This document shows, piece by piece, positions 16,580 through 36,070 of a stretch of DNA of 64,000 nt. Origin of the DNA: Paragemmobacter ruber (GTDB lineage: Bacteria; Pseudomonadota; Alphaproteobacteria; Rhodobacterales; Rhodobacteraceae). Below the pieces are notes generated by a model. The model was not told the origin of the DNA, searched no databases, and saw only the letters and a list, made by a program, of their open reading frames with translations. The stretch covers positions 1,302,001-1,366,000 of the forward strand of contig NZ_JAAATW010000001.1 of NCBI RefSeq assembly GCF_009908315.1, written 5' to 3'. A program made the translations under genes and the position numbers. Numbering within the stretch: the stretch's first letter is position 1; every line of letters starts with the position of its first letter.

Positions 16580-17620
16580 CTACCTGCCACGCCCATTCGC
16601 GCGCAGCACCCTGCGCACCAGCGGCGCGCCCACGATCACGGTCACAATGCGCACCAGATGGTGCAGGATCACAAAGCCCAGATCTGCCCCCGCCACCAGC
16701 GCCAGAACCGTCATTTCCGCCTGCCCACCGGGCGCAAAGGCCAAGAACCCCTCGACCGGCGCGGCCAGCCCGCTCAGGACCGCGATCTCGGTGAACAGCG
16801 CCGCCAGCACGGCCAGCACCGCCACAAAGGCCAGCCCCGACAGCACATAGCCCCGCAACTCGCGCAGCGTCACACCCACATACTGCACCCCCACACCCAG
16901 CCCGATGAACAGTTGCGCCACCAGAATGGCCTCTGTCGGCGGGCGCGCATGGATCAGCCCTGTCAGGGAAAGCACCGCCGCCGCGATCATCGGCCCAAGG
17001 ATCGCCGCCCCGAACAGACCCGCCCGCTCGGCCCCTTTCCAGCCGACGACCGCCGCCACCCCCATCAACGCCAGTTCCGACAGGGGGATGTCCCGCGCCG
17101 GTTCACCGATGGCCCCGCTCAGGCTGGCGCCATAGAGAAACACAAGGATCAGGGGGGCCAAGGTCACGATCATCAGCACCCGCGTGGCATGGATCAAGGC
17201 CAAGGCGCGGACATCGCCCCCCGCTTCCTGCCCGAAGGCCAGCATGTCCGACAGCCCGCCCGGCATCGCCGCGAACCATGCGGTGGCCGGATCATGGCCC
17301 AGACGTCGGAAGAAGGGATATCCCACCGCCCCGATGGCGGCGACATAGACCGGCACCAGCGCCACGCTGCCCGCCATCTGCGGGATGCGCTCCACCACCT
17401 CGGGCGTGATGGACGCGCCGACCGCCACGCCAAGGATTGTCCGCGCCGCCTTTGACAGGGGCCCCATCCCGCGCAGTGGCGCCCCCATCAGCGCCACCAG
17501 AAGACAGGCCAGCATCGGCCCGAACAGGAACGGCAGCGGCAACCCCGCCAGATGGAACAGCCCAGCGCCCAGCAGGGCAATCCCAAGGGTCATCCCGCGG
17601 CGGGCCAATTGATCGGGCAC
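16580..17620 (-). CDS. AbrB family permease-like membrane protein
   Basis: 346-residue integral membrane protein of the AbrB/COG3180 family, often labelled 'putative ammonia monooxygenase' without evidence. The GTG at 17620 follows AAGGAG at ideal spacing and is preferred; the frame is open upstream through the divergent GntR gene. About ten hydrophobic segments in two internally repeated halves, each with a GLP/PGG-type turn: FAAMPGGLSDMLAFGQEAGG in the first half and FAPGGQAEMTVLALVAGADL in the second. This duplication is the family signature. It is divergent from gntR-tcuA-tcuB and likely shares its operator, so transport of a related carboxylate is plausible but inferred. Confidence 0.82.
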   Translation of the reverse strand: MPDQLARRGMTLGIALLGAGLFHLAGLPLPFLFGPMLACLLVALMGAPLRGMGPLSKAARTILGVAVGASITPEVVERIPQMAGSVALVPVYVAAIGAVGYPFFRRLGHDPATAWFAAMPGGLSDMLAFGQEAGGDVRALALIHATRVLMIVTLAPLILVFLYGASLSGAIGEPARDIPLSELALMGVAAVVGWKGAERAGLFGAAILGPMIAAAVLSLTGLIHARPPTEAILVAQLFIGLGVGVQYVGVTLRELRGYVLSGLAFVAVLAVLAALFTEIAVLSGLAAPVEGFLAFAPGGQAEMTVLALVAGADLGFVILHHLVRIVTVIVGAPLVRRVLRANGRGR

Positions 17621-17652
17621 GATCACACTCCTTGCCCTGATATGTATCCAAC

Positions 17653-17660
17653 TGTATACA
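17653..17660. promoter_or_regulatory. Candidate GntR operator TGTATACA
   Basis: An 8-bp perfect palindrome lies in the 72-nt gap between the divergent AbrB-like gene (start 17620) and gntR-tcuAB (start 17693), with a related GTATCC immediately upstream. FCD-type GntR regulators commonly bind palindromes of the TTGTATACAA kind, so autoregulation with control of both directions is likely. Confidence 0.5.
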
Positions 17661-17692
17661 CATGGACACACCGCAATCAAGCGAGTCGTCTG

Positions 17693-18361
17693 ATGCGCGA
17701 ACCCATCGAAGGACCACAGGGCCAGGGCGCCTATCGCCGCCTGCTGGACGACATTCGCGACGGCCGTCTTCTGCCCGGCACTCGCCTGCGCGAAACCGAT
17801 CTGGCCGATCGGCTGGGCATCAGCCGCACCCCGGTGCGCGAGGCGATCCGCCAGCTTGAAGCCGATGGTCTGGTCATCCACCTGCCCCGGCAGGGGGCCA
17901 CCATCCGCAGCCTCGACTATGCCGAGGTGATCGAGCTTTACGAGATGCGCGCCGTGCTGGAGGGCACCGCCGCCCGGCTTGCCGCCCGGGTCGCGTCAGA
18001 GGTGGAGCTTGCCGAACTGACATCGCTCAACACGGCGTTGGCCAGCGATCCCGCCGGGCCAGAGGCCCAGCAGATCAACCGCCAGTTCCACCGCACGCTT
18101 CTCGATGCCGCGCGCAACCGGTTTCTGGTGAAATCCATGAACGCCCTGCGCAAGACGATGATGATCCTCGGCCCCACCACCCTGTCCGATCCCGCCCGCG
18201 CCGCAGAGGCCGTGGCAGAACACGCCACTCTCCTTGCCGCCCTTCAGGCCCGCGATGCCGCCGGGGCCGAGGCCGCCATGCGCACCCATGTCGAACACGC
18301 CCTCTCTGCCCGCATCCGGGGGATGCGCGGGCGCGAACTGCCCGATGAGGATGACACATGA
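17693..18361 (+). CDS. GntR family transcriptional regulator (FCD type)
   Basis: 222 residues. N-terminal winged helix-turn-helix (about 10-80): LLDDIRDGRLLPGTRLRETD, DRLGISRTPVREAIRQLEA and GLVIHLPRQGATIRSL. C-terminal all-helical FCD ligand domain (about 90-215) with the metal/ligand pattern EMRAVLEGTAARLAA, NRQFHRTLLDAARN and EHATLLAALQARDAAGAEA. Such domains bind carboxylate effectors, often through a metal. The stop overlaps the tcuA start by 4 nt, so it is the first gene of the tcu operon and presumably its repressor. Confidence 0.9.
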   Translation: MREPIEGPQGQGAYRRLLDDIRDGRLLPGTRLRETDLADRLGISRTPVREAIRQLEADGLVIHLPRQGATIRSLDYAEVIELYEMRAVLEGTAARLAARVASEVELAELTSLNTALASDPAGPEAQQINRQFHRTLLDAARNRFLVKSMNALRKTMMILGPTTLSDPARAAEAVAEHATLLAALQARDAAGAEAAMRTHVEHALSARIRGMRGRELPDEDDT

Positions 18362-19749
18362 CGCGCTGGCCCGAAGTCTTTGATCTGGCCGTCGTGGGGG
18401 GCGGCAATGCCGCCCTTTGCGCCGCCATAACGGCGGCCGAGGCCGGGGCAAAGGTGCTGATCCTTGAAGGGGCGCCCTTGGCCTATCGCGGCGGCAATTC
18501 CCGCCACACCCGGAATTTCCGCTGCATGCACAGGGGGCCGATGTTCCCCCTGACCGGCGCCTATGAGGAAGAGGAGTATTTCAACGACCTACTCCTCGTG
18601 ACCAAGGGCAAGACCGACGAACACCTCGCCCGCATGGTGATACGCGCCTCCGAGGAATGCCTGCCGTGGATGCAATCCCACGGCGTGCGCTTTCAGCCGT
18701 CGCTGTCCGGCACGCTCAGCCTGTCGCGGACCAATGCCTTCTTCCTTGGTGGCGGCAAGGCGCTGGTGAACGCCTATTACCGCACCGCCGCCGATCTTGG
18801 CATCGCCATCGCCTATGAGGCGCAGGTCATCCATGTGCATCGCGACGGCGACCGCATCACCCATCTGGAAACCGAAATCGCGGGCCAGCCCACCACCGTG
18901 CGCGCGCGGGCCTTCGTCCTTGCCTCGGGTGGCTTTCAGGCCGATCTCGACTGGCTCGCCCGCGCTTGGGGGCCCGCCGCGCGCAATTTCCTGATCCGCG
19001 GCACCCCCTACAATCGCGGCGTGGTCCTGCGCGACATGCTGGATCAGGGGGCCGAATCCGTGGGCGACCCCACCCAATGCCACGCCGTCGCCATCGACGG
19101 CCGCGCCCCGAAATATGACGGCGGCATCGTCACCCGGCTGGATTGCGTGCCCTTCTCCATCGTCGTGAACCGCGACGGCGACCGCTTCTATGACGAGGGC
19201 GAGGATGTCTGGCCCAAACGCTATGCCATCTGGGGCCGCCTGGTGGCCGCCCAGCCCGATCAGGTGGGCTATGCGATCATCGACCACAAATCCATCGACC
19301 TGTTCATGCCTTCGGTCTTTCCACCCGTAAAGGCCGACACGATCGAAGGCCTGGCCACCCAGATGGGCCTTGACCCCACCGCCCTGCGCCGCACGGTGGA
19401 TGGCTTCAACGCCGCCTGCCAGCCCGGCCCCTTCCACCCCACCGAACTGGACGGTCTGCGCACCCAAGGGCTGAACGTGCCCAAAACCAACTGGGCGCGG
19501 CCCATCGACACCGCCCCCTTCTACGGCTACCAGCTTCGCCCCGGCGTGACCTTCACCTATCTGGGGCTGAAGGTGGACACCCGCGCGCAGGTCCATGCTG
19601 CAGAAGGCCCGATCCGCAATCTCTGGGCGGCGGGCGAGATCATGGCCGGCTCCATCCTCGGGCAAGGCTATCTTGCCGGTTTCGGCATGACCATCGGCAC
19701 CGTTTTCGGCCGCATCGCAGGACAGGAGGCCGCCGCCCATGTCGCTTGA
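18358..19749 (+). CDS. tcuA: FAD-dependent tricarballylate dehydrogenase TcuA
   Basis: 463-residue flavoprotein of the fumarate reductase/succinate dehydrogenase family. The TcuA type oxidises tricarballylate to cis-aconitate. The N-terminal FAD site is DLAVVGGGNAALCAAITAAE. The substrate region includes YRGGNSRHTRNFRCMHRGP, and the C-terminal flavin-contact stretch is NLWAAGEIMAGSILGQGYLA. RHTRNFR and GGGKALVNAYY fit TcuA rather than SdhA or aspartate oxidase. The gene sits between gntR and tcuB with overlaps on both sides, the same order as in the characterised Salmonella tcu locus, although no tcuC transporter follows here; the tct genes nearby may serve. Confidence 0.9.
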   Translation: MTRWPEVFDLAVVGGGNAALCAAITAAEAGAKVLILEGAPLAYRGGNSRHTRNFRCMHRGPMFPLTGAYEEEEYFNDLLLVTKGKTDEHLARMVIRASEECLPWMQSHGVRFQPSLSGTLSLSRTNAFFLGGGKALVNAYYRTAADLGIAIAYEAQVIHVHRDGDRITHLETEIAGQPTTVRARAFVLASGGFQADLDWLARAWGPAARNFLIRGTPYNRGVVLRDMLDQGAESVGDPTQCHAVAIDGRAPKYDGGIVTRLDCVPFSIVVNRDGDRFYDEGEDVWPKRYAIWGRLVAAQPDQVGYAIIDHKSIDLFMPSVFPPVKADTIEGLATQMGLDPTALRRTVDGFNAACQPGPFHPTELDGLRTQGLNVPKTNWARPIDTAPFYGYQLRPGVTFTYLGLKVDTRAQVHAAEGPIRNLWAAGEIMAGSILGQGYLAGFGMTIGTVFGRIAGQEAAAHVA

Positions 19750-20836
19750 CATGCCCCCCAAAATTGCACCGCAGGCCGAGGCGCGCCGCCAGATGGAAAT
19801 CTGCAACGCCTGCCGCTATTGCGAAGGCTTCTGCGCCGTCTTCCCCGCCATGACGCGGCAAAAGGCCTTTGCAGATGGCGACCTCACCCATCTGGCGAAC
19901 CTCTGCCACAACTGCCGGGGGTGCTATTACGCCTGCCAGTATACCGAACCGCATGAATTCGCCCTGAACATCCCCGCCGCGCTGGCCGAGGTGCGGGCGG
20001 ACAGCTGGGAACGCCTCGCCCGCCCCCGCGCGCTTGCCCGGCTGTTCCAGACCCACGGCACCGCCATGGCCGCGCTGGCCGTCGTGGCGCTGGCCTTCTT
20101 CTTCTGGGCGCTTGCGGCGCTGCGGCCCGCGGAGGGCGCGGGCTTTTACGCCCATCTCGCCCACAACACGATGATCGCCATCTTCATCCCGGCCTTCCTT
20201 GCCCCCCTTGCCCTGATCGCGCTGTCGCTGCGCGACTACTGGCATGAGGTGGGCGGCGGCCGCATCCGCCTGTCCCACCTGTTCCAAGCCCTCCACGCCG
20301 CCGCCCGGATGAAGAACCTCTCGGGCGGACATGGAGAGGGGTGCAATTTCGAAGACGCCGACCGCTTCTCCGACCGCCGCCGCCAGTTCCATCACCTGAT
20401 GATGTACGGCTTCCTGCTGTGCTTCGCCTCCACCGCCAGCGGCACGGTGATGCACTACGCCTTTGCGTGGGAAGCCCCCTATCCCCTCTGGTCCCCGCCC
20501 AAGCTGCTGGGCATCCCCGGCGGTCTCATGATGGTGGCAGGCGCCGCCGGTCTGGCCTGGCTCAAGACCAAGGCCGATCCCGCCCTCGGTGCCGCCCGCG
20601 TCTGGGGGGGCGAGATGGCCTTCATCCTGCTGCTGGGATCCGTCGCCCTTACCGGCCTTGCGCTCTATGCCGCCACCGGGACGGGCCTAGTCGGCCCGCT
20701 TCTGGCCATCCATCTGGCGACGGTGCTGGTCCTGTTCCTGCTGATGCCGTTTTCCAAGATGGTCCACGGCTTCTATCGCCTTGCCGCCCTGGTGGCCGAG
20801 GCGGGCAAACCCGCCCCTGCAGGCGGCGGCGAATAG
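19739..20836 (+). CDS. tcuB: Tricarballylate utilisation protein TcuB (Fe-S, membrane)
   Basis: 365 residues. TcuB passes electrons from TcuA to the quinone pool. Two cysteine clusters typical of 4Fe-4S binding are near the N-terminus: CNACRYCEGFCAVFP and CHNCRGCYYACQY. About six hydrophobic segments follow (for example TAMAALAVVALAFFFWALAA and GEMAFILLLGSVALTGLALY), with several membrane histidines that could ligate haem (FHHLMMYGF, AIHLATVLVLF, KMVHGFY). It overlaps tcuA by 11 nt. It is convergent with the small gene at 20843. Confidence 0.9.
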   Translation: MSLDMPPKIAPQAEARRQMEICNACRYCEGFCAVFPAMTRQKAFADGDLTHLANLCHNCRGCYYACQYTEPHEFALNIPAALAEVRADSWERLARPRALARLFQTHGTAMAALAVVALAFFFWALAALRPAEGAGFYAHLAHNTMIAIFIPAFLAPLALIALSLRDYWHEVGGGRIRLSHLFQALHAAARMKNLSGGHGEGCNFEDADRFSDRRRQFHHLMMYGFLLCFASTASGTVMHYAFAWEAPYPLWSPPKLLGIPGGLMMVAGAAGLAWLKTKADPALGAARVWGGEMAFILLLGSVALTGLALYAATGTGLVGPLLAIHLATVLVLFLLMPFSKMVHGFYRLAALVAEAGKPAPAGGGE

Positions 20837-20842
20837 CGGCGG

Positions 20843-21138: not shown

Positions 21139-22566
21139 TCACGGCAGGAGCGACACCATCCGCGTGCCATCCGCATCGTCAGTGATGCCCCAGATCGCCG
21201 CGATCAGCCGGTCCTGTCCCGCAGTGTCGATCACACCCTCGCAGCAGGAGCGCAGCTTCGCCTCCACCTCGGCGTCGCTCATCGGATTGTCGGGGCCACC
21301 GCGATAGCGCTCATCCGCCCAGCCCGACACTTCCGTCCCGTCCTTGCGCCGGATGGTGATGCGCGACCGCACCTTGTCGAACCCCATCGCCTCGATCGCC
21401 GGATCGTGCTCTGTCCGCACCCGGCGCTGCATCGCCTGCATCTCGTCGGATGCGACAAAGGCATCCGAGAACTCGCGCTTGCCCGCCGCCCGCACCAGCG
21501 CGATCATCGACACTTCGGCAGGAAGCGAGAATTTCGCCTCCAGATGGTTCGACGCGATGGGATAGCGGATCGGCTTCAGGATGTTCGTCCCGGCATGAAT
21601 GGTGATCGTGTCGATCTCCTGCGGCTTCACATCCGCCTCTGTCACCAGCCGCAGCATCAGATCCATCGTCGGATGCGTCAGGATCCCGCAGGGATAGGGC
21701 TTGATCGACACGCCCGGATCGGTGATCGACCACGTCTTTCCAAACCCCTGCGCCATCTTTTCGGGCGTCACCCCGCCGCCCATCACGGCCATGAACCCCC
21801 ACGGCCCGTCAAGCGCTGCCGGATCGGCACCGAACCCCCGCTTGGCCAGCAGCGCCGCCGTCACCCCGTTCTCGCTGGCGCGGCCCACATGCAGGGGCTT
21901 GGTCATCGTCCCGAAGTTGCAGCGGATGCCTGCCGCAAGGCTGGCCGCGATGCCGAAGCCCTGCCGCAGCTCTGCCCCGCGCAGCCCCAAAAGCCAGGCC
22001 GCCGCGGCAAAGGCCCCGAAGGTGCCCACCGTGCCCGAGGAATGTTTGCCGCTCAGATAATGCTGCGGCAGCATCCATTCCGATATCTTGCTCTCCACCT
22101 CGACACCCACCTGAAACGCCGTCATCAGCGCCCGCCCGTCGATCCCGCCCAGCATCTGCCCCACACACAGCGCCGCCGTCAGCGGCGGGATGGTCGGATG
22201 GGTAAGCAGCCCGTAAACATGCGCCGGATCGACCGACACCTGCGTGTCGTCCCAGTCATGCGCATGACCTGCCGTCCCCAGCACCCGCGCCGCGATCCCG
22301 ACCGGCACCCGGATCCCGTCACCACCCAAGAGCCGCGCATCGCCGCGCCCGCCCGTCTCGCGCGCCTCGTCAATCAGGATATGGACGGAATGTTCCTCGC
22401 TGCCCGCCGCATAAAGCCCCGCCGCATCCAGCATGCAGCGCCGCCCGATCTGCAACGCGTCGGCCGGAATGTCCCCGTAGCGGGTCGCCTCGATAAAGCT
22501 GGCCGCATCCTCGGTGATCGTCATCCCCTCGGGAATACGGGCGAAATCGTTATTGGTCACGGCCAT
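21139..22566 (-). CDS. MmgE/PrpD family protein (PrpD-A)
   Basis: 475-residue member of the MmgE/PrpD superfamily, whose known members include 2-methylcitrate dehydratase, cis-aconitate decarboxylase and iminodisuccinate epimerase. Positions equivalent to the known active site appear intact: HDWDDTQ (Asp/Thr), LLTHPTIPPL (His), SGKHSSGTVG (His), TMTKPLHVGRASENG (Lys) and SIKPYPCGILTHPTMD (Lys). The ATG at 22566 follows CAGGAG. It is last in the six-gene tctC-tctB-tctA-PrpD-B-rhodanese-PrpD-A operon and overlaps the rhodanese stop by 10 nt. The substrate cannot be told from sequence. Confidence 0.9.
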   Translation of the reverse strand: MAVTNNDFARIPEGMTITEDAASFIEATRYGDIPADALQIGRRCMLDAAGLYAAGSEEHSVHILIDEARETGGRGDARLLGGDGIRVPVGIAARVLGTAGHAHDWDDTQVSVDPAHVYGLLTHPTIPPLTAALCVGQMLGGIDGRALMTAFQVGVEVESKISEWMLPQHYLSGKHSSGTVGTFGAFAAAAWLLGLRGAELRQGFGIAASLAAGIRCNFGTMTKPLHVGRASENGVTAALLAKRGFGADPAALDGPWGFMAVMGGGVTPEKMAQGFGKTWSITDPGVSIKPYPCGILTHPTMDLMLRLVTEADVKPQEIDTITIHAGTNILKPIRYPIASNHLEAKFSLPAEVSMIALVRAAGKREFSDAFVASDEMQAMQRRVRTEHDPAIEAMGFDKVRSRITIRRKDGTEVSGWADERYRGGPDNPMSDAEVEAKLRSCCEGVIDTAGQDRLIAAIWGITDDADGTRMVSLLP

Positions 22567-24167
22567 GCTCGGGCTCCTGCGGTCTTGCTGTGAAAAGTCG
22601 GATCGGCGGGCCAAGGGTTCAGCCCCGCTTCGGAAAGTCGGTCCAGAAGCCCGGTCTCCCAGGCCAGATAGGCGCGGGCGTCATCAAGGTTGCCCCGATG
22701 CCGCCCGGCGCAGAAACGCACCACATCAATGTCACGCGCCGGGTCATCCTGCGCCTCGGTGGCCAGCGGCAGCCCTGCCATCCGCCAGGCCTCGGGTCCG
22801 TCCCGGTTCACGCCAAGGACCGACACCCCCATCCCATGCAGGTCCGTCGCCGCTGCACCGGCCAGCGCCGCATCCCCCGCGATCAGCGCCACCCGCGCCC
22901 CGCGTGCCAGGCCGATCCTGTCCAGCCTCGGGCGCAGGGCGCGGATCGCCCCCGCCACATGCCCGGCGCGAAACGCCGATGCCGAGCGCAGGTCCAGCAG
23001 AACCGCCCCCCCGGCCCGCGCCTGCGCAAGGGCCGGGGCCGCGATGACGGGCGGCTCTGCCACCGCGATCCGACGGGCGGCAGGCGCGATCTCCGGCGGC
23101 GCCTCGCGCAGCACATGCGCATCAATCCCCATCCGGCAAAGCCACAGCGCGGCAAAGGCCGCCCGCACCAGATCGGGGTCCCACAGCACCACGCGCGCGC
23201 CGCGCACCGCGATGAAACGGTCGGTCTGCTGCACCAGCACCGTGCCGGGTGCGCGCTGGAATCCGGGCGGGGTTTCGCCCTCGTCCTCTGGCCTTGGATC
23301 GAAAAGATAGGTCGTCAGCCCGTCATCCCGCAGCCAGCGCCCCAGCGTGGACGCCGCCACTTCGGGGATGCCGTATCGCGCCATCACCGCCTGCGCCCGC
23401 GCCCTGCCCGCCGCGCGCGCCGCCGCATCCACCGCCGCATCCAACAGGGGCGCCGCGCGGGCCGCCCCCATCTCGCGCGCGCGTCCCGAAAGCTCCCACC
23501 CTTGGGTTCCGTCGCGCAGCGCCATCACCTGCGTCGCCAGACCGAAATCCCGCACCGACTGCGCACCGATGATCGACCGGGTCCGCCCGGCGCAATGCAC
23601 CACCACGCTCTGCCCGGCCTGCACCATACCGGGCAGGCGCAGCCCAAGCTCGGCATTGGGGCAATTCACCGCCCCGGGCAGGGTAAAGGCGCAATGCTCG
23701 GTCCAGGGCCTGCCGTCGATCAGCGCGACGGATGACCCTTCCTGCATCCGGGCCGCCAGCGCCTCTGGCCCGATCTGCGGCACCTCAAAGGCGTGCTCGA
23801 CCCATTCGCCAAAGGCTTTGGAGAAGCTGTGCTCTCCCTTGAACAGGGGCAGGCCCGCCGACACCCAGCCGGGCGCACCGCCCGCCACGATGGCCACATC
23901 GCCCCAGCCCGCACCCGCCATCCGCGCCGCCGCACGCGCAGCGACACCATCCCCGGCATCTAAAAGCACGACCTCCACGCCCCGGCGCGGCAACAGCGCA
24001 GGCAGCCGCGCCTCCAGCTGACTGTAGGGCAGGTTGACCGAACCGAAGGGATGCCCCTCTGCGGCTTCGCCCGCCTCGCGCAGGTCGAGAAAGGCCCATT
24101 CCCCCGGCCCCCCTCCGCCCCGCAGGCGCTGCATCACCGCAAGAGGCGGGATCTGCGCTGCACTCAT
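22557..24167 (-). CDS. Multi-domain rhodanese-like protein
   Basis: 536 residues built from about four rhodanese-like units. Domain 1 (about 5-110): AFLDLREAGEAAEGHPFGSVNLPY, but the active loop reads LLDAGDGVAARAA with no Cys. Domain 2 (about 130-225): ALIDGRPWTEHCAFTLPGAVN with an intact loop HCAGRTRS, Cys192. Domain 3 (about 300-355) is degenerate. Domain 4 (about 385-470): LLDLRSASAFRAGHVAGAI with loop IAGDAALAG, no Cys. A C-terminal tail contains FCAGRHRGN. Only domain 2 looks able to form a persulfide. It is translationally coupled on both sides to MmgE/PrpD genes, an unusual partnership. Sulfur transfer for the pathway or for an Fe-S partner is inferred. Confidence 0.85.
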   Translation of the reverse strand: MSAAQIPPLAVMQRLRGGGGPGEWAFLDLREAGEAAEGHPFGSVNLPYSQLEARLPALLPRRGVEVVLLDAGDGVAARAAARMAGAGWGDVAIVAGGAPGWVSAGLPLFKGEHSFSKAFGEWVEHAFEVPQIGPEALAARMQEGSSVALIDGRPWTEHCAFTLPGAVNCPNAELGLRLPGMVQAGQSVVVHCAGRTRSIIGAQSVRDFGLATQVMALRDGTQGWELSGRAREMGAARAAPLLDAAVDAAARAAGRARAQAVMARYGIPEVAASTLGRWLRDDGLTTYLFDPRPEDEGETPPGFQRAPGTVLVQQTDRFIAVRGARVVLWDPDLVRAAFAALWLCRMGIDAHVLREAPPEIAPAARRIAVAEPPVIAAPALAQARAGGAVLLDLRSASAFRAGHVAGAIRALRPRLDRIGLARGARVALIAGDAALAGAAATDLHGMGVSVLGVNRDGPEAWRMAGLPLATEAQDDPARDIDVVRFCAGRHRGNLDDARAYLAWETGLLDRLSEAGLNPWPADPTFHSKTAGARAWP

Positions 24168-27180: not shown

Positions 27181-27213
27181 GTCGTCAGACCTTTTCAGAT
27201 TGGGGAAAGGGGA

Positions 27214-27756
27214 TCAGCCCAGAAGCGAAGGCCAGAGCCCCGCAGGCAGCGGGATCGCCAGAAGCTTTACGAACAGCAGGTAGTAAACCAAGGCCACAAC
27301 CACGGCCACGCCCAGCGTGTAAAGCCCGGCCCGCGCGCCGATATAGACCGCCGTTCCCGCCACCAGCAGCGTGGCGCTCAGCACATAGCCCAGCCACGGC
27401 AGGATCAGCAGGTAGACGATGCCGATCACCACAACGCCCGCCGCCTTCAGATGCTCTTGGCGGGTGAAGCGGATGCCCTCTTCCTCGGGGCGTTCGGGCG
27501 CGACCGTGGCCGCCGCCCTGCGCGCGGCCCGCAGGAACATCGCCTCGATCAACAGCGCGCGCAGGATAAGCAGGACGCTGAAGAGGATCATGGCAACGGC
27601 CAGCATCCGCGGCAGGGCGGCGGCGTTCACCACCCCGTCCAGCGGACTGATCGGAATGTCGCCGGCGGCCCGCCAGTACCACACGCCCAAAGCCAGGGCC
27701 GCAAGCCCGATCCACACATCGCGCGGAATACGGAAACGGATCGCCGACGACTGCAT
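27214..27756 (-). CDS. tctB: Tripartite tricarboxylate transporter small membrane subunit TctB
   Basis: 180 residues with four hydrophobic segments (WIGLAALALGVWYW, AVAMILFSVLLILRALL, AGVVVIGIVYLLILPWLGYV and LGVAVVVALVYYLLFVKLL), the TctB arrangement. The ATG at 27756 follows GGAGGG at ideal spacing; a GTG one codon upstream is the alternative. The C-terminal KLLAIPLPAGLWP is typical of the family. Lies between tctC (15-nt gap) and tctA (33-nt gap). Confidence 0.92.
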   Translation of the reverse strand: MQSSAIRFRIPRDVWIGLAALALGVWYWRAAGDIPISPLDGVVNAAALPRMLAVAMILFSVLLILRALLIEAMFLRAARRAAATVAPERPEEEGIRFTRQEHLKAAGVVVIGIVYLLILPWLGYVLSATLLVAGTAVYIGARAGLYTLGVAVVVALVYYLLFVKLLAIPLPAGLWPSLLG

Positions 27757-27771
27757 CACATATCCCTCCGC

Positions 27772-28746: not shown

Positions 28747-28856
28747 CTTCTCTCCTCCCATGCCGAAACCTACAGCCCCACTCCGCTGCCCATTCCGGAC
28801 AGTCCCCCACGGACAACGGTGGCTGTTGCGCTTCATCCTGCACCGATCTATCAAAA

Positions 28857-28873
28857 TGTCAATCGTAGACAAT
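28857..28873. promoter_or_regulatory. Candidate GntR operator between tctC and PrpD-C
   Basis: TGTC (28857-28860) and GACA (28868-28871) form a short dyad containing GTAGACAAT at 28865-28873. This matches, with one change, GTTGACAAT at 31135-31143 in front of the second GntR gene. It lies in the divergent gap between tctC (28746) and PrpD-C (28899). It suggests that the same regulator controls both divergent units. Confidence 0.45.
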
Positions 28874-28898
28874 CTGCGATCTGCAAAAGAGGCCCCGC

Positions 28899-30260
28899 AT
28901 GTCCTGCCCACAGACCGCCCGCGTCGCCGATCACATCGCCACCGCCCTTGCCACCCCCCTCCCGCCCGAGGTGGAGGAAAAGGCAAGGCTCCACCTTCTC
29001 GACACGCTGGCCGCCATCCTGTCGGGCGGGCATCTGCCCGCAGGCATCGCCGGGGCGCGCCTCGCCCGGCGTCTGGGTGGCCCGGCCGAGGCGCTGGTGA
29101 TCGGCTCCGACACCCTTGCCGGGGCTCCGCAGGCGGCGCTGGCCAATGCCATGGCCGCCCATGCCGACGAAACCGATGACAGCCATGTCGGCGGCCGCTT
29201 TCACCCCGGTTGCGCCATCGTCCCTGCCGCGCTGGCCATGGCCGAAACGCAAGGCGCAGGCGGCACCGCGCTGTTGCGCGCGATCACGCTTGGCTACGAT
29301 ATCGGGGCCCGCGCCGTCATGGCGCTGGGCGTCCGCTCGGCCGATACCGCGCGCTTTTCCACCCATACGATCGGCGGCAATTTCGGCGCCACCGCCGCCG
29401 CCGCCGCCCTTGCCGGGCTGGGCACACGCGGGGTGATGCACGCCCTTTCTTACGCCGTGCAACAGACCTCGGGCGTCCCCTACTGGCGGCGCGACGCCGA
29501 CCATATCGAAAAGGCGTTCGATTTCGGCGGCCTTGGCGCGCGCAACGGCGTGATGGCCGCGCTGATGGTGCAGGAAGGCTGGACCGCCGTCGAAGGCGTG
29601 CTGACCGGCACGCCCTCCTACCTTTCTGCCTTCGCCGAAATGCCGCAACCTGACGCGCTGACCGATGGCCTCGGCACCCGCTACGAAATCATGGGGGCTG
29701 CGATCAAGAAATGGTGCGTCGGCTCCCCCATCCAGGCCGCGCTCGATTCGGTCATCGCCCTGATCGAGGCGCACGCGCTGACCGCCGATGACGTGGCCGA
29801 ACTGCGCGCCATCATGCCCGATGACCGCCTGCACATCGTCGATAACCGCGACATGCCCGATGTCTGCCTGCAGCATCTTCTGGCCATCGCCCTGATCGAC
29901 GGCACGGTGGGCTTTGCCGCCGCTCATGACCGCGCGCGCATGGCCGATCCCGCCATCCTCGCCCTGCGCAGCCGCATGAAAGCCATTCCAAGCAAGGACT
30001 TGACAGAAGCAAGACCACCCCGGCAGGCGATCATCGAGATCGACACGAAGGATGGACGCAGCCTGCGCCATCACACCCGCGCGGTGCTTGGCACGCCCGC
30101 CAATCCGATGACCCGCGCGCAGGTCGTGGCGAAGGCGCGCGATCTGATCGAACCCGATCTCGGCCCCGCGCTGACCGGCGCCCTGATCGACGCCATCCTC
30201 CAGATCGACCGCCTGCCCGACATCCGCGCCCTGCGCCCGCTCCTGGGCGCTGCCGGCTAA
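28899..30260 (+). CDS. MmgE/PrpD family protein (PrpD-C)
   Basis: 453 residues. Superfamily core: HADETDDSHVGGRFHPGCAIVP (Asp and His), RFSTHTIGGNFGATAAAAAL (His), DHIEKAFDFGGLGARNG (Lys) and MGAAIKKWCVGSPIQAALD (Lys). It looks catalytically complete. It is more distant from the other four than PrpD-D and PrpD-E are from each other. Single gene, divergent from tctC and convergent with the SDR gene at 30296; the GC-rich hairpin at 30263-30288 separates them. Start ATG at 28899, with AGAGG upstream. Confidence 0.9.
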   Translation: MSCPQTARVADHIATALATPLPPEVEEKARLHLLDTLAAILSGGHLPAGIAGARLARRLGGPAEALVIGSDTLAGAPQAALANAMAAHADETDDSHVGGRFHPGCAIVPAALAMAETQGAGGTALLRAITLGYDIGARAVMALGVRSADTARFSTHTIGGNFGATAAAAALAGLGTRGVMHALSYAVQQTSGVPYWRRDADHIEKAFDFGGLGARNGVMAALMVQEGWTAVEGVLTGTPSYLSAFAEMPQPDALTDGLGTRYEIMGAAIKKWCVGSPIQAALDSVIALIEAHALTADDVAELRAIMPDDRLHIVDNRDMPDVCLQHLLAIALIDGTVGFAAAHDRARMADPAILALRSRMKAIPSKDLTEARPPRQAIIEIDTKDGRSLRHHTRAVLGTPANPMTRAQVVAKARDLIEPDLGPALTGALIDAILQIDRLPDIRALRPLLGAAG

Positions 30261-30262
30261 GG

Positions 30263-30288
30263 GCGGGGGGGGCAACAGCCCCCCCCGC
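30263..30288. terminator. GC-rich hairpin between convergent PrpD-C and SDR genes
   Basis: Perfect 10-bp arms (GC followed by eight G at 30263-30272; eight C then GC at 30279-30288) with a 6-nt loop. Bidirectional position between stops at 30260 and 30296. No T-run, so termination efficiency is uncertain. Confidence 0.65.
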
Positions 30289-30295
30289 ACCCCCC

Positions 30296-31057
30296 TCAGG
30301 GCATATACATCCCGCCGCTCACATGCACCGTCTGCCCGGTCATGAACCGCGCCTCCGGCATGCAGAGCGACAGGATGACAAAGGCCGCCTCGTCAATCTC
30401 GCCCTCACGCCCCAGGATCGGGCCGCCCGATCCCATCTCGGGCGAGGCGCCCGATGTGGCCGACCGCTTGCCGCCAATCTTGCCCGGCGCCACGCAATTG
30501 GCGGTGATGTTGCGGTCCGCGAATTCCACCGCGATGGATTTCGTCAGCCCGATCAGCCCCGCCTTCCCCGCCGCCACATGCGCCCGCCGCTTGGCGCCCA
30601 CATGGGCCGACACGCCACCCAGATTGATCACCGTGCCGCCGCCACGCTCCACCATGCTACGCAGCGCCTCGCGGCTGCACAGAAAGGCCCCGTCCATGAT
30701 CACCGAATTGGTCTGCCGCCACTCCTCCAGCGTCATCTCCAGAAACGGCTTCTCGCCCCGGATGGCGGCGTTGTTGATCAGGATGTCCACCCCGCCAAAC
30801 GCCTTGCGCGCCACATCGAACACGGCCATCACCTCGGCCTCGACGGTGACATCCCCCAGCGCCACGGCGGCGCGCCCGCCCATGGCGCGGATCTCTGCCG
30901 CCACCGCCTCCACCTCGTCCCGCGATTGCCGCGCATGGACGACGACATCCGCCCCCGCCTGCGCCAGGCCCAGCGCCACGGCCCGCCCGATCCGGCGCGA
31001 TGCCCCCGTGACCATGGCCACCTTGCCCTGCAACGGCCTGTCGGTCCTGTTCAACAT
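30296..31057 (-). CDS. SDR family oxidoreductase without the catalytic Tyr
   Basis: 253-residue short-chain dehydrogenase/reductase. The Rossmann glycine motif VTGASRRIGRAVALG is near residue 15, LINNAAIRGEKPF follows, and the end is RFMTGQTVHVSGGMYMP. The start at 31057 follows AGGGAGG. In the active-site stretch GGVSAHVGAKRRAHVAAGKAGL, the Ser and Lys are present but the YxxxK Tyr position is Val, with His next to it. This is seen in a subset of SDRs, but it makes ordinary NAD(P)-dependent carbonyl reduction doubtful. Divergent from the second GntR regulator, with the operator-like dyad 31125-31150 between them. Confidence 0.88.
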   Translation of the reverse strand: MLNRTDRPLQGKVAMVTGASRRIGRAVALGLAQAGADVVVHARQSRDEVEAVAAEIRAMGGRAAVALGDVTVEAEVMAVFDVARKAFGGVDILINNAAIRGEKPFLEMTLEEWRQTNSVIMDGAFLCSREALRSMVERGGGTVINLGGVSAHVGAKRRAHVAAGKAGLIGLTKSIAVEFADRNITANCVAPGKIGGKRSATSGASPEMGSGGPILGREGEIDEAAFVILSLCMPEARFMTGQTVHVSGGMYMP

Positions 31058-31124
31058 TCCCATCCTCCCTGATGCCCGGCGCGCCACATCCCGCGCGCGA
31101 TCCGTCACCTTTCACTTGCGCATC

Positions 31125-31150
31125 ATTGCCAATTGTTGACAATAGGCAAT
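31125..31150. promoter_or_regulatory. 26-bp near-perfect dyad, likely GntR operator
   Basis: Outer arms ATTGCC (31125-31130) and GGCAAT (31145-31150) flank inner arms ATTGT (31132-31136) and ACAAT (31139-31143) around a TG centre. Only the centre and one symmetric pair break the symmetry. It lies between the divergent SDR (start 31057) and GntR (start 31202) genes. The inner GTTGACAAT nearly repeats at 28865-28873. Confidence 0.65.
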
Positions 31151-31201
31151 AACAAGGCACGGCAAGGCAAGGCAGCCGGCACAGAGTTTCGGAGAAAAGG
31201 T

Positions 31202-31909
31202 ATGGCAATGATCGCGCGCGGTTCCCTCGACACATCCGAAGCCCTCGACGTGCTTCGCACGTCATCCCTCACCCGCGTGGTGCAAGAGGAAATCGAACGC
31301 ATCATCCTCTCCGGTGCCTATGCGCCGGGCGAGAAGCTGAACGAAAAGACCCTCGCCGATCAGCTCGGCGTCAGCCGCGGCCCGGTGCGCGAGGCGTTTC
31401 AGGCGCTTCACGTGCGCGGTCTGGTCGAGATGATCCCCAATCGCGGCGTCTTCGTGCAGCGCATCTCGCGCCATGACGCGGTGGCGATCTACGATGTGCG
31501 CGCTGGCCTCTTCGGCACCGCCTGCCGCCTTCTGGCCGAACGCATTACGACAGCCCAGAGCGCAGAACTCCACGCCCTGATCGCCCAGATGGACGTGGCC
31601 GGAAAGAAGCGCGACCTTGATGCCTATTTCCCGCTGAACATCGCCTTTCACACGGCCATCGTTACCGGCACCGACAACCGGATCCTGTCGGAAACCTATT
31701 TCGGCCTTGTCTCGCGGCTGCAGCTGTTCCGTGCGCGCGGCCTTGTCCATGGCGGCGGGTTCGAATCCTCCAACATCGAACACCGCGCCATCGTGACCGC
31801 GCTGGATGATCGCAACCCGCATGCCGCCTTCGAGGCGGGCTTCGCCCATGTGCAGGCCGGCAAGGCGCGCATCCTCGCTTCGGGCGATCCGCAACAGGGC
31901 CGGACATGA
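31202..31909 (+). CDS. GntR family transcriptional regulator (FCD type), second copy
   Basis: 235 residues. Winged helix about 20-90: VQEEIERIILSGAYAPGEKL, DQLGVSRGPVREAFQALHVR and MIPNRGVFVQRIS. FCD domain about 100-225: AIYDVRAGLFGTACRLLAER, NIAFHTAIVTGTDN and EHRAIVTALDDRNPHAAFE. The ATG at 31202 is preceded by GGAGAAAAGGT. It overlaps the PrpD-D start by 4 nt and so leads the operon GntR-PrpD-D-PrpD-E-TauE. It differs clearly from the GntR at 17693. Confidence 0.9.
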   Translation: MAMIARGSLDTSEALDVLRTSSLTRVVQEEIERIILSGAYAPGEKLNEKTLADQLGVSRGPVREAFQALHVRGLVEMIPNRGVFVQRISRHDAVAIYDVRAGLFGTACRLLAERITTAQSAELHALIAQMDVAGKKRDLDAYFPLNIAFHTAIVTGTDNRILSETYFGLVSRLQLFRARGLVHGGGFESSNIEHRAIVTALDDRNPHAAFEAGFAHVQAGKARILASGDPQQGRT

Positions 31910-33291
31910 CGGCCCACCCGCCCCCGCCCGGCGGCGCGCTGGCCGAAACCTACGCCGCCTGGCTCTGTAACCTCACGCTCTCCGACATCCCCGCCGCCAT
32001 GCAACAGGTCGCCACGCTCGACCTGATCGACGCTGCGGGCCTGTGCATCGCCGCGCGGGGCGAGCCCTACATGGCACAGGCCACCGCCGGCTGGGATACG
32101 GATGGTCCGTGCACCGCGCTCGGCCATACCCGCCGCCTCGATGCCGCGGGCGCGGCCTTCGCCAACGGCATCGCCATCCATGGCGAGGATTTCGACGACA
32201 CGCTCGAAGGCGCGCCGATCCGCGTGGGCGCCATGACGATCCCTGCCGCGCTTGCCGCCGCGGAACGCTTCAACCTGCCCGGCGAACGCGCCACGCTGGG
32301 CATCATCGCGGGGCTGGAAACCGTCTGCCGCCTGAACCACATCGCCCCCGGCGCGATCCATCGCGCGGGCTTCCACCCCGTCGGCGTGATCGGCGCCCTC
32401 GGCGCGGCAGCGGCGGCGGGCAAGACGCTGGGCCTTGACGCCGCCCAGCAGGCCGCCGCCTTTGGCATCGCGGGCAGCATGGCATCGGGCATCCTCGAAT
32501 ACCTGTCCGAAGGGGCGTGGACCAAACGCCTCCACCCCGGCTGGGCCGCCCAATCGGGCCTGCGCGCCGCCCTGCTGGCCCGCACGGGCTTTTTCGCCCC
32601 GCGCACCGTGCTCGATGGCGCGCACGGCTTTTTCCACGCCTTCGCCCCCACCGCCACGCCCGATTTCACCCACCTGACCCGCGATCTGGGGCAGGATTGG
32701 TATGCCCAGCGCATCGCCTTCAAACCCTATGCCTGCGGCACGATGATCCACCCCTATATCGACTGCATGATCCGCCTCGCCGCCACCGGCATCCGGGCCG
32801 ATCAGATCCGCGCGATCACCTGCCCCACCGGCGAAGGCCTCGTCCACCGCCTGTGGGAGCCACTGCCCGCCAAGCACCGCCCGCCCTCGGGCTATGCCGC
32901 GAAATTCTCGATGCCCTTCTGCATGGCCGTGGGCTTTTTCGATGGCGATGCGGGGCTGGCCCAATTCACCGATGCCCGCGCCGCCGACCCGGCCGTCCTG
33001 TCTCTGGCAGCAAAGATCACCTATGTCATTGATCCCGCGAACGAATACCCGCGCAACTATTCCGGCCATATCCGCGTGGACACCACCGATGGCCGCCACA
33101 TCGCGCTGGATCAGCCGCATATGCGCGGCGGCGTCCGCGAACCGCTGACCGACAGCGACATCCGCGCCAAGGCGCTGGCCAACTGCCGCCACGGCGGCTG
33201 GTCCGACGCGCAGGCGCACCGCCTGATCGACTGGGCCGCCACCCTCGCCACCCAGCCCGACATGACCAGCCTTTCGGCCTTTGCCAGCTAA
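31906..33291 (+). CDS. MmgE/PrpD family protein (PrpD-D), altered active-site position
   Basis: 461 residues. Core motifs: HGEDFDDTLEGAPIRVGAMT, HRAGFHPVGVIGALGAA, WTKRLHPGWAAQSGLR and FKPYACGTMIHPYID. The Asp/Thr, second His and both Lys positions are present. Where PrpD-E has the first His (CPVHSG), this protein has Arg (APIRVG). That position corresponds to a catalytic His of cis-aconitate decarboxylase-type enzymes, so it may have a changed activity. It overlaps the GntR stop (ATGA) and is followed 15 nt later by PrpD-E, its closest relative here; they look like a tandem duplication. Confidence 0.9.
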   Translation: MTAHPPPPGGALAETYAAWLCNLTLSDIPAAMQQVATLDLIDAAGLCIAARGEPYMAQATAGWDTDGPCTALGHTRRLDAAGAAFANGIAIHGEDFDDTLEGAPIRVGAMTIPAALAAAERFNLPGERATLGIIAGLETVCRLNHIAPGAIHRAGFHPVGVIGALGAAAAAGKTLGLDAAQQAAAFGIAGSMASGILEYLSEGAWTKRLHPGWAAQSGLRAALLARTGFFAPRTVLDGAHGFFHAFAPTATPDFTHLTRDLGQDWYAQRIAFKPYACGTMIHPYIDCMIRLAATGIRADQIRAITCPTGEGLVHRLWEPLPAKHRPPSGYAAKFSMPFCMAVGFFDGDAGLAQFTDARAADPAVLSLAAKITYVIDPANEYPRNYSGHIRVDTTDGRHIALDQPHMRGGVREPLTDSDIRAKALANCRHGGWSDAQAHRLIDWAATLATQPDMTSLSAFAS

Positions 33292-33306
33292 TCCACGGGA
33301 ATACAG

Positions 33307-34674
33307 ATGACCGATCTCACCGTCTCCGAACGCCTCGCCGACTGGCTGGCCGATTTCGACCTTTCCACCGTCCCCGCCGCCGCCCGCCGCGCCGCCGCCG
33401 ACACCATCCTCGATACCGTCTGCCTGACCGTCGCCGCGCTGGAAACCGATTACGGCCGGTCCGTCCGCGCGGCCTTTCCCGATCCCGGCCCCGCCACCGT
33501 CTGGGGCCTGCCCGAGGGCCGCGCCCCCGAAGCCGCCGCCGTGATCAACGGCACCTGCGGCCATGGCGAGGATTACGACAACACCTTCGAAGGCTGCCCC
33601 GTCCATTCCGGCGTGGTCATCATTCCCGCCCTCCTCGCCGCCGCCGAACGCTACGGCCTTTCGGCCACCGACACCGCCCGCGGCATCGTCGCGGGGATCG
33701 AGGTGATGTGCCGCCTCGGCCTTGTCGCCGACAAGGCGGTCCACAAGGCAGGCTTCCACCCCACCGCCGTCCTCGGCGCCATGTCCGCCGCCGCGGGCGT
33801 GGCCACCGCCCTGCGGCTGGATCGCACCGCCATCCGCAACGCGCTTGGCGTGGCGGGCTCCACCGCCTCGGGCATCATCGAATATCTCGCCGATGGCAGT
33901 TCCACCAAACGCCTGCACGCCGGATGGGCGGCACAGGCCGGGATGCGCGCCGCCGCACTGGGGGCGGCAGGCTTCACCGGCCCCACGACCGTGTTCGAAG
34001 GCGATCATGGCTTCTTCTACGCCTTCTCCACCCCCCGCGCGACCGACTTCGCCCCGCTGGTGGATGACCTCGGCACCCGCTGGGAAGCCGCCCGCCTCGC
34101 CTTCAAACCCTTCGCCTGCGGGACCATGACCCAACCTTACGTCGATGCCGCCATCGCACTGGCCCGCCGCGGCATCCGGCCCGAAGATGTGGTCCGCATC
34201 ACCTGCGACGTGGGCGAAGGCACCGTCCACCGCCTGTGGGAACCGCTCGCCCTGAAACAGCAGCCACCCACCCCCTATGCCGCCAAATTCTCCGGCCCCT
34301 ACTGCCTTGCCGCTGGATGGGTCTGGGGCGATGCGGGGCTTGCGCAGTTCACCGAAACCTCCGTCCGCGATCCCCGCGTCCTGTCGCTGGCGGCCAAGGT
34401 CAATTTCCGCATCGACCCGGCCAACGAATACCCCGCCAATTACACCGGCCATATCAAGGCCGAACTGGCCGACGGCACCATCGCCGAATCCTTCATCCCC
34501 TGCCTGCGCGGCGGCGCCCGCGCGCCCATGACGCGCGAGGACCTCTTGGTCAAGGCCCGCGCCAACCTCGCCTTCGCGGGCCGCGACAGCGCTGCCGCCG
34601 ACCGCCTCGCCAGCTGGGCCGACGCGCTGATGGAGGGCACAGGCACCCCCACGTCGGGCCTCTTGCGGTGCTGA
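33307..34674 (+). CDS. MmgE/PrpD family protein (PrpD-E)
   Basis: 455 residues, tandem paralogue of PrpD-D. Motifs: HGEDYDNTFEGCPVHSGVVI (Asp and His), HKAGFHPTAVLGAMSAA (His), STKRLHAGWAAQAGMR (Lys), FKPFACGTMTQPYVD (Lys) and NEYPANYTGHIKAEL near the end. The active-site set seems complete. Start ATG at 33307, 15 nt after the PrpD-D stop. It overlaps the TauE/SafE gene start by a few bases. The pair may act as a heteromer or on two successive acids. Confidence 0.9.
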   Translation: MTDLTVSERLADWLADFDLSTVPAAARRAAADTILDTVCLTVAALETDYGRSVRAAFPDPGPATVWGLPEGRAPEAAAVINGTCGHGEDYDNTFEGCPVHSGVVIIPALLAAAERYGLSATDTARGIVAGIEVMCRLGLVADKAVHKAGFHPTAVLGAMSAAAGVATALRLDRTAIRNALGVAGSTASGIIEYLADGSSTKRLHAGWAAQAGMRAAALGAAGFTGPTTVFEGDHGFFYAFSTPRATDFAPLVDDLGTRWEAARLAFKPFACGTMTQPYVDAAIALARRGIRPEDVVRITCDVGEGTVHRLWEPLALKQQPPTPYAAKFSGPYCLAAGWVWGDAGLAQFTETSVRDPRVLSLAAKVNFRIDPANEYPANYTGHIKAELADGTIAESFIPCLRGGARAPMTREDLLVKARANLAFAGRDSAAADRLASWADALMEGTGTPTSGLLRC

Positions 34675-35429
34675 CCGAGGCGCAACTTCTCGCCGGCCAG
34701 ATCACCCCCGCCATCGCGCTCGCCGGGATGGTCGTCTGCTTCTTCGCGGGTATGCTGGGGGGGTTGTCGGGCTATGGCGCGGGGTTGCTGGTCACGCTTT
34801 TCATCGCCCCCATCGTCGGGCCAAAGGCGCTGATCCCGATGATGTCGGTCCTCATGCTCGTGAACAACGCCAGCCGCGTGTGGTTCTATCGCCACGCGCT
34901 CGACCTGCCCACCGTCGCCAAGATTTCCGCCATCGCCATGCCCATGTCCTGGCTGGGGGCCGAGCTTTACGTCCGCCTCGAGTCCGAGATAATCCAGACG
35001 ATCCTCGGCATCGTGCTGATCCTGTCGGTGCCGCTGCGCCGCTGGATCGACCGGGCCCAGATCAAACCCGGCCCCGTCGCCGTCTACGGCATCGGCGCGA
35101 CCTATGGCTTCCTCGCCTCGCTCATTGTCGGCGCGGGCATGCTGATCGTGCCCATGCTCATGGGCATCGGCTTTGCGGGGCCTGCGCTTCTTGCCACCGA
35201 TGCTGCCATCGCGGTGGTGACCAACCTCTTCAAATCCGTGGTCTTCGGCGCGCTCGACGCGCTGTCGCTGGCGCATTTCGTGCTCGCCCTGATCCTCGGC
35301 CTCTGCACCATTCCCGGCACGGCCTGCGCCGCGTGGATCGTGCGCCGCACCAGCCTCAGGCTGCACACCTTCCTGATCGAAGGGCTGATCCTCGCAGGCG
35401 GCATCGCCATGGTCGCGGGCCTGATCTGA
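34668..35429 (+). CDS. TauE/SafE family membrane transporter
   Basis: 253-residue member of the sulfite exporter TauE/SafE family (also known for sulfoacetate and other organic-anion export). About eight hydrophobic segments. The N-terminal half-repeat shows FFAGMLGGLSGYGAGLLVTL; the second shows GATYGFLASLIVGAGMLIVP. The GTG at 34668 overlaps the PrpD-E stop; its ribosome site is weak and an internal ATG at 34728 is an alternative, but that would remove the first membrane segment. Last gene of the GntR-PrpD-D-PrpD-E operon, so it may export a product or by-product of that pathway. Confidence 0.82.
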   Translation: MLTEAQLLAGQITPAIALAGMVVCFFAGMLGGLSGYGAGLLVTLFIAPIVGPKALIPMMSVLMLVNNASRVWFYRHALDLPTVAKISAIAMPMSWLGAELYVRLESEIIQTILGIVLILSVPLRRWIDRAQIKPGPVAVYGIGATYGFLASLIVGAGMLIVPMLMGIGFAGPALLATDAAIAVVTNLFKSVVFGALDALSLAHFVLALILGLCTIPGTACAAWIVRRTSLRLHTFLIEGLILAGGIAMVAGLI

Positions 35430-36031: not shown

Positions 36032-36070
36032 GGGCCCGCCACCCCAAGGCAACGCCGCAGTCCGATCACC

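Follow-up and report, generated by a model that had tools for sequence, protein, structure and literature searches.

Within a 64,000-nucleotide stretch of the Paragemmobacter ruber genome (contig NZ_JAAATW010000001.1, positions 1,302,001 to 1,366,000; the window), the tripartite tricarboxylate transporter (TTT) TctCBA, five proteins of the MmgE/PrpD superfamily, a short-chain dehydrogenase/reductase (SDR), the FCD-type GntR regulator GntR2 and a TauE/SafE-type permease form one conserved unit, which is rearranged in other Alphaproteobacteria and carries an operator-like box at both of its divergent promoters. The unit (21139-35429) is probably a GntR2-controlled catabolic regulon that imports and processes a substituted succinate or a tricarboxylate.

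Gene content and conservation of the unit

The five MmgE/PrpD genes lie inside 13.5 kb (21139-34674), and their products are named PrpA to PrpE here in coordinate order. Each exceeds the Pfam gathering cut-off for both MmgE_PrpD_N and MmgE_PrpD_C, and the whole 3.96-Mb genome has exactly five PF03972 matches, all at this locus. PF03972 is found in 80 of 120 genomes of the family, 66 of which carry one to three copies; at least five of the 120 (the window's own genome, G000, and G104, G014, G074 and G050), among the matches listed, have at least five such genes inside 30 kb of a single contig. TctA, TctB and TctC are all encoded and, like two FCD-GntR regulators, AbrB, TauE and the rhodanese, score above their Pfam cut-offs. 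Open reading frames (ORFs), Pfam and NCBIfam thus bear out the gene content given in the initial annotation of this DNA, namely five MmgE/PrpD genes within about 13.5 kb together with tctCBA, tcuAB, two FCD-GntR genes, AbrB, TauE, an SDR and a "multi-rhodanese", with the qualifications that the SDR lacks the catalytic Ser and Tyr of its family and that the rhodanese has two Pfam stretches. The features of the unit are as follows.

21139-22566, minus strand: PrpA, MmgE/PrpD protein with isomerase-type active site (His/Tyr two-base set; Pfam, residues; closest solved relative iminodisuccinate (IDS) epimerase, 2hp0); start ATG 22566 adopted, TTG 22614 also possible for the ORF
22557-24167, minus strand: multi-domain rhodanese (two Pfam stretches)
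24164-25675, minus strand: PrpB, MmgE/PrpD protein of 2-methylcitrate-dehydratase-like type (NF042438, 583 bits, below the cut-off of 950; residues)
25672-27180, minus strand: TctA, large permease subunit of the TTT importer (Pfam TctA, 478 bits)
27214-27759, minus strand: TctB, small permease subunit (Pfam TctB, 62.8 bits)
27772-28746, minus strand: TctC, periplasmic binding protein (Pfam TctC, 107 bits on ORF 27772-28986); start placed at the putative signal-peptide Met
28857-28880, plus strand: predicted operator box, site 1, in the tctC/prpC divergent promoter (promoter alignment, pattern scan)
28899-30260, plus strand: PrpC, from a divergent clade of MmgE/PrpD proteins (Asp81 replaced by Glu, Tyr145 absent; Pfam, alignment, tree)
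30296-31108, minus strand: SDR without catalytic Ser and Tyr (GG...HVxxxK; alignment)
31127-31150, plus strand: predicted operator box, site 2, in the SDR/gntR2 divergent promoter (promoter alignment, pattern scan)
31133-31909, plus strand: GntR2, FCD-type GntR regulator (Pfam), putative binder of the box; the listed TTG start sits within the operator, the real start probably being ATG 31202 or 31208
31906-33291, plus strand: PrpD, MmgE/PrpD protein with Arg for catalytic His99 (LEGAPIRVGAM; Pfam, alignment, tree)
33307-34674, plus strand: PrpE, sister of PrpD, with His99 retained and His for Tyr145 (Pfam, alignment, tree)
34668-35429, plus strand: TauE/SafE-type permease (Pfam TauE, 77 bits on ORF 34236-35429; adjoins PrpE in relatives); putative GTG start overlapping the end of prpE

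Judged by their overlapping ends, tctA-prpB-rhodanese-prpA are apparently one operon, with tctC-tctB immediately upstream, and gntR2-prpD-prpE(-tauE) a second, while prpC and the SDR gene are each single and lie opposite the promoters of their neighbors.

Relatives of the cluster were gathered through PrpB (4 loci), through the rhodanese (4 of 120 family genomes) and through PrpD (4 of 292 genomes of the order, 19 of 386 of the class and 8 of 397 of the phylum; plasmids, 9 records, 6 of them examined), the genome counts including the window's own. The full cassette TauE-PrpE-PrpD-GntR2|SDR|PrpC|TctCBA-PrpB-(rhodanese)-PrpA is also present in a genome of the same genus (G104), in Gemmobacter aestuarii (G383) and in a metagenome-assembled genome of the Rhodobacteraceae (G384). 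G014 has an uninterrupted rhodanese-PrpE-PrpD|SDR|PrpC|TctCBA-PrpB-TcuA-TcuB, and G074 has the core PrpE-PrpD|SDR|PrpC|TctCBA-PrpB with extra MmgE/PrpD genes. In distant Alphaproteobacteria the gene order is shuffled and the partners are retained: 4 of 25 loci examined have PrpA (60-64%) next to PrpD/PrpE homologs or flanked by them, as PrpD-PrpA-PrpE-SDR in L067 and L068 and beside PrpE in L066 and L081, and PrpC adjoins the SDR in L113-L116.

In 35 other genomes with members of the PrpD/E clade, the same fetched region holds TctA (at least 30% identity) in 28 and the SDR (at least 38%) in 29, followed by a GntR2-like protein in 15, PrpC in 11, TauE in 8, PrpA and AbrB in 7 each, the rhodanese in 6, PrpB in 4 and TcuA in 2; some of these counts are too low, since genomes with two loci lose PrpA, PrpB or TcuA, and the second loci do hold PrpB (G383, G074, G014), PrpA (G383) and TcuA (G014). 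A PrpD-like row of G735, printed as 44% but marginally under the 44% cut, is left out of the 35. Association of the SDR with PrpD/E is also seen as presence in the same genome, not always in adjacency: among the 386 class genomes, scored on the best 7 first-look candidates in each, the SDR occurs in 17 of 19 with PrpD/E versus 18 of 367 without (Fisher p=3.8e-18), and in 16 of 18 versus 18 of 367 when the window's own genome is omitted (p=3.8e-17).

Operator-like boxes and the adjoining tcuAB cassette

Promoter alignment reveals one conserved box in each of the two divergent promoters in the window, G104, G383 and G384. The pattern obtained by merging these boxes, TGYCAATYGTWGACAATNNGCRAT, has two matches without mismatch in the window, at 28857 and 31127, and a further one with 3 mismatches on the opposite strand of the second site, against 0 matches in 100 shuffles. 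A shorter pattern at up to 2 mismatches has 2 sites in this regulon and no other anywhere in the genome; G383 and G384 have 2 each, all in their clusters, and G074 has 1, in its cluster, whereas the reversed pattern as a control gives 0 sites in any of six genomes. When as many as 5 mismatches are allowed, the loci of Pacificitalea, Neorhizobium, Rhizobium and G074 show weaker boxes and L017, L024, L025, L026, L029, L066, L067, L068 and L071 show none, these scans having no shuffle control. GntR2, encoded beside one of the two sites, would be the protein that binds both. The conserved loci, the confinement of the box to this regulon in the genome and the co-occurrence of the SDR together reject chance clustering of the five genes.

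A number of observations nevertheless weigh against a single regulon with a fixed set of partners. The G383 cassette is without the rhodanese; TctA is missing from 7 and the SDR from 6 of the 35 PrpD/E genomes (in the fetched region, some of these being cut by contig ends); and members of the SDR subfamily are further present in 18 class genomes with no PrpD/E match, where 10 ORFs neighboring the SDR are of mixed kinds, although one genome counted in this way (G538) has a PrpD-like gene (46%) beside the SDR. As for the box, G104 has 1 further site elsewhere besides the 2 in its cluster, neither of the 2 sites of G014 is in its cluster, and 5 distant loci scanned (L029, L066, L067, L068, L071) have none; moreover the pattern was derived from the sites that it finds, so that only its absence elsewhere counts as independent evidence. 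Finally, PrpA, PrpB and PrpC are absent from many minimal TctCBA-PrpD-SDR loci, and consequently the five enzymes need not form one linear pathway. The last point, with the variable occurrence of these three and the membership of the five proteins in four different MmgE/PrpD clades, would also fit an aggregate of small, mutually independent salvage routes, one acid for each MmgE/PrpD enzyme, which share an importer and a regulator. Such an aggregate is unlikely, however, in view of the tight overlapping operons and of the joint occurrence of PrpA, PrpD, PrpE and the SDR in altered order in L067 and L068. Scatter over unrelated clades together with the lack of a conserved neighborhood had been named in the initial annotation as what would speak against a common system; the clades are indeed four, but the neighborhood is conserved.

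Next to the proposed regulon lies a cassette related to tricarballylate utilization:

16580-17881, minus strand: AbrB-type permease of the tcuAB cassette (Pfam; ORF, true start downstream)
17643-17670, no strand assigned: candidate palindromic operator of the tcuAB cassette (palindrome 81% complementary; 5 promoters compared by eye)
17552-18361, plus strand: GntR1, FCD-GntR of the tcuAB cassette (Pfam; ORF, true start probably about 17693)
18358-19749, plus strand: TcuA, FAD tricarballylate dehydrogenase (NF006130, 683 bits, cut-off 369)
19739-20836, plus strand: TcuB, 4Fe-4S electron carrier partner (TIGR02484, 343 bits, cut-off 247; NF011607, 376 bits, below the cut-off of 524)

The initial annotation joined this cassette to the five enzymes, with oxidation at a CH2-CH2 bond by TcuAB and hand-on of the product. 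A single pathway of this type, in which tricarballylate or a near relative enters through TctABC and is converted by TcuAB to an aconitate that the five MmgE/PrpD enzymes then process, draws on G014, where TcuA (72%) and TcuB (60-61%) directly follow TctA-PrpB in one operon. It also draws on the distribution of TcuA orthologs, present in 24 of 120 family genomes: among the matches listed, an MmgE/PrpD gene is no farther than 10 kb from TcuA in at least 3 of the 24 (G000, G014, G040; 0.26 expected, p=0.0025), or at least 2 of 23 with the window's own genome omitted (p=0.024), and TcuA-like flavoproteins (33-40%) are near MmgE/PrpD genes in L029, L032, L071, L102 and L105. Against it, G014 is alone among the five core-bearing relatives in having TcuA in the cluster; the gene is more than 1.4 Mb off in G104, and G383, G384 and G074 carry it on a different contig. 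The gntR1-tcuAB genes stand alone in G104 (with abrB), G383 and G074, and tcuAB is accompanied by abrB and a different GntR in G016, a genome without any MmgE/PrpD gene. The tcuAB promoters of the window and of four tcuAB cassettes (L108-L111), compared by eye, share a separate palindrome, about TGTATCCAnnTGTATACAnnTGGATACA, and none of the five has a GntR2 box at up to 5 mismatches. We infer, in addition, that AbrB is the likelier tricarballylate permease, and it may replace TcuC as importer. The single pathway is therefore improbable, and the joint scheme does not stand as it was put: with its own palindrome, no GntR2 box and tcuAB apart in four of the five core relatives, two regulons abut in the window, abrB-gntR1-tcuAB and the TctCBA-MmgE/PrpD unit. 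Of the carboxylate catabolic system first proposed, the conserved unit remains, without the abrB-gntR1-tcuAB part. A closer link of tcuAB to the core is seen in G014 and perhaps exists in G040, and TcuAB oxidation feeding the five enzymes is a possibility that this one relative, G014, favors.

Active sites of the five MmgE/PrpD proteins and the SDR

Active-site residues were compared in an alignment with IDS epimerase, human and Bacillus subtilis IRG1 and Escherichia coli PrpD, and were read according to the mechanism set out in PMC12290011 and PMC7347537. MmgE/PrpD substrates share a 1,4-dicarboxylate core, for which a route through a C2 enolate has been proposed, and methylsuccinate isomerase of this superfamily works on the free acid rather than on a coenzyme A (CoA) ester; homologs occur in 19.2% of the species searched and are mostly of unknown function (PMC12290011).

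PrpA and 16 related rows (17/17) have the whole isomerase set intact, including His99, Tyr145 and both Lys residues (IDS numbering), as expected of a two-base isomerase. The other four proteins differ in having no Tyr145 and, in PrpD, no His99. PrpB and its 10 relatives carry Arg for His78 in 11/11 and Ala for His203 in 10/11, as does E. coli PrpD (Arg78, Ala203), and PrpB also resembles the 2-methylcitrate dehydratase PrpD family (NF042438) by score, although below its cut-off. In PrpC and 12 relatives (13/13) Asp81 is replaced by Glu and Tyr145 is missing, the Lys column of PrpC being ambiguous since two alignments place Lys one column apart. In the PrpD/E clade, His takes the place of Tyr145 in 47/47 rows with a letter there. 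Within it, the PrpD rows, the window's included, have Arg for His99 in 10/10, in the context LEG[AT]PIRVGAM and as far as Sodalis; of the other 94 alignment rows 93 have His in this column, the remaining row being a G104 PrpD fragment with a gap here. Because the Arg is invariant down to 60% identity, these sequences argue for a functional residue rather than decay. In 9 of the 10 genomes with an Arg-bearing PrpD, the cluster also contains a His-bearing PrpD/E relative, either directly beside it or no more than 2 kb away; Sodalis has none within 12 kb on either side.

The gene tree places the five proteins in four clades, PrpD and PrpE being sister paralogs and PrpD one subclade of the PrpD/E clade. 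This was a quick tree with Shimodaira-Hasegawa-like approximate likelihood ratio support (SH-aLRT) only, and two partial G104 PrpD rows were omitted; the long branches of E. coli PrpD, IRG1 and IDS epimerase may join falsely in it, and the tie of PrpB to E. coli PrpD consequently rests on the residues and the NCBIfam score. Decarboxylation of cis-aconitate, a step that the initial annotation allowed, is disfavored by the residues: all five window proteins have Gly at the IRG1 His277 column and no Tyr at 318. Cis-aconitate decarboxylase (IRG1/CAD) otherwise has the fold family and most carboxylate-binding residues in common with them.

The SDR is FabG-like and falls below the cut-off of each of 25 families examined, the best 25 of 194 matched. 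In comparison to FabG 4dml its catalytic Ser is replaced by Gly and its Tyr by Val, so that neither the catalytic Ser nor the YxxxK of a classical SDR is found, whereas a cofactor motif of the TGxxxGIG type (TGASRRIG) and the NNA motif (NNAA) are retained in the window protein. The features GG and HVxxxK are constant in 30/30 rows of the subfamily (29 genes, 38-100% identity; SDR genes within ORFs of at least 420 residues were left out). Eight SDR rows of other subfamilies (25-37% identity), outside this count, keep the Tyr in 3 and lack it in 5, and in another set of 30 rows, overlapping the first, the Tyr is absent from 30/30, HV is present in 28, SG replaces GG in 9 and Arg replaces Lys in one. 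By analogy, His may stand in for Tyr in these proteins. Histidine serves as a catalytic residue in malate dehydrogenase.

A proposed pathway and its relation to known systems

We infer the following reactions, their direction and their substrate from the residues and the gene content. TctCBA would import a substituted succinate or tricarboxylate, and the MmgE/PrpD enzymes would act on the free acid, not on a CoA ester, each through a C2 enolate at the 1,4-dicarboxylate core. PrpA would invert a stereocenter by the two-base His/Tyr mechanism as an epimerase, PrpB would add or remove water at a citrate-like center as a (de)hydratase, PrpD and PrpE, possibly paired (PrpE with His, PrpD with Arg), would join the Tyr-less SDR in performing the core step, and PrpC would be an add-on for a further isomerization or dehydration. 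The product would join the tricarboxylic acid (TCA) cycle directly at the level of fumarate, malate or aconitate, so that no CoA ligase or lyase would be needed, and the adjoining tcuAB cassette, a separate tricarballylate pathway, may supply cis-aconitate. Stereochemical and (de)hydration processing is the simplest reading because the importer is of the TTT type, the cluster encodes no CoA enzymes and the products are possibly one step from the TCA cycle. Hydroxylated acids would fit the tartrate-dehydrogenase-like and acid-sugar-dehydratase-like genes of sister clusters. A bolder and rather doubtful proposal is that PrpD and PrpE form a hetero-oligomer, in which Arg and His replace the His/Tyr pair, that feeds the Tyr-less, His-bearing SDR in the degradation of a polycarboxylate that no known route degrades. 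If true, the PrpD/PrpE heteromer with the SDR would be new chemistry for both superfamilies, and the invariant His-to-Arg change of PrpD and the loss of Tyr from the SDR are in any case sharp, testable departures from accepted mechanisms. The regulon provides five MmgE/PrpD proteins with a common transporter, regulator, operator-like box and partner enzymes, and hence a way to search for the substrate through the ligands of TctC; should this be an environmental chelant, a plant acid or a detergent builder, the genes would in addition serve as a marker of biodegradation.

A sulfur-containing polycarboxylate of the thio- or sulfo-succinate type, whose released sulfur the rhodanese and TauE would handle, is a decidedly unlikely substrate. 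The rhodanese, whose CAGRTR cysteine is retained in 5/5 proteins examined including that of the window, occurs in 6/35 and TauE in 8/35 PrpD/E genomes, ComA-family genes are found in some related loci, and TctC proteins are candidates for thiodipropionate transport in Variovorax (PMC8102459). However, the rhodanese is absent from G383 and TauE from 27/35, and no thiol dioxygenase or sulfite-handling enzyme was detected among those window proteins that were scanned against domain libraries.

Among known systems, the itaconate/methylsuccinate cluster of Pseudomonas and Cupriavidus, as described in PMC12290011 and PMC9875883, has an (S)-(R)-methylsuccinate isomerase that is an MmgE/PrpD protein with the His/Tyr set, like PrpA, and that acts on the free dicarboxylate ahead of catabolism. 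That cluster combines one MmgE/PrpD protein with a CoA transferase, an acyl-CoA dehydrogenase, a hydratase and a lyase, whereas the present cluster has five MmgE/PrpD proteins, no CoA enzymes, a TTT importer and the Tyr-less SDR. The best solved relative of PrpA, PrpC, PrpD and PrpE is the IDS epimerase of Agrobacterium tumefaciens BY6 (PDB 2hp0/2hp3); unlike in its system, no C-N lyase was found among the scanned proteins of the window, and PrpC, PrpD and PrpE are without Tyr145. The methylcitrate cycle, which the initial annotation had set aside for want of the cycle's own prpB and prpC, an absence borne out here, is likewise rejected despite the likeness of PrpB to its PrpD, the genome having one citrate-synthase-family protein (1 PF00285 match) and no second. 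The TcuABC system of tricarballylate utilization is represented next door, but the window tcuAB has an AbrB permease, GntR1 and its own palindrome, and is usually away from the conserved five-gene unit. No description of a regulon combining a TTT importer with multiple MmgE/PrpD proteins was found among the matches listed from an open-license literature library, and the gene set is apparently undescribed, although all of its parts are from known families and its oddities are the Arg-bearing PrpD and the Tyr-less SDR. The mmgE/prpD genes on Paracoccus yeei plasmids are referred to in PMC11578231 as propionate catabolism.

The extra genes that recur in related loci (MR_MLE, Iso_dh/tartrate dehydrogenase, TauD, ComA, OCD, hydantoinase) indicate no single substrate. 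G074 (L016/L024/L025) has seven MmgE/PrpD genes in 27 kb with mandelate-racemase-family and rhodanese genes interspersed. About 19 kb of the Pacificitalea manganoxidans plasmid pDY25-A (L036) hold five MmgE/PrpD genes, TctCBA, an SDR, AbrB, tartrate dehydrogenase, PdxA and an isocitrate/isopropylmalate dehydrogenase. Genes of the ComA (phosphosulfolactate synthase) family lie beside MmgE/PrpD clusters in L032 and L068, in L032 adjoining a TcuA-like flavoprotein, and L102-L103 (G050) and L105 (G048) have five and three MmgE/PrpD genes, 29-36% identical to those of the window, with TctA and TcuA-like flavoproteins.

On the minus strand, a 918-codon open frame antisense to prpD/prpE (31696-34452) looks like a shadow frame of high-GC DNA. 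The genes beyond tauE at 36070-42663, which encode a LysR regulator, a YdcS-like binding protein, an ABC ATPase, two permeases and an aminobutyraldehyde dehydrogenase, were considered as part of the system and rejected, since they are an operon for polyamine uptake and oxidation; this operon is also found near the G074 cluster (66-84%).

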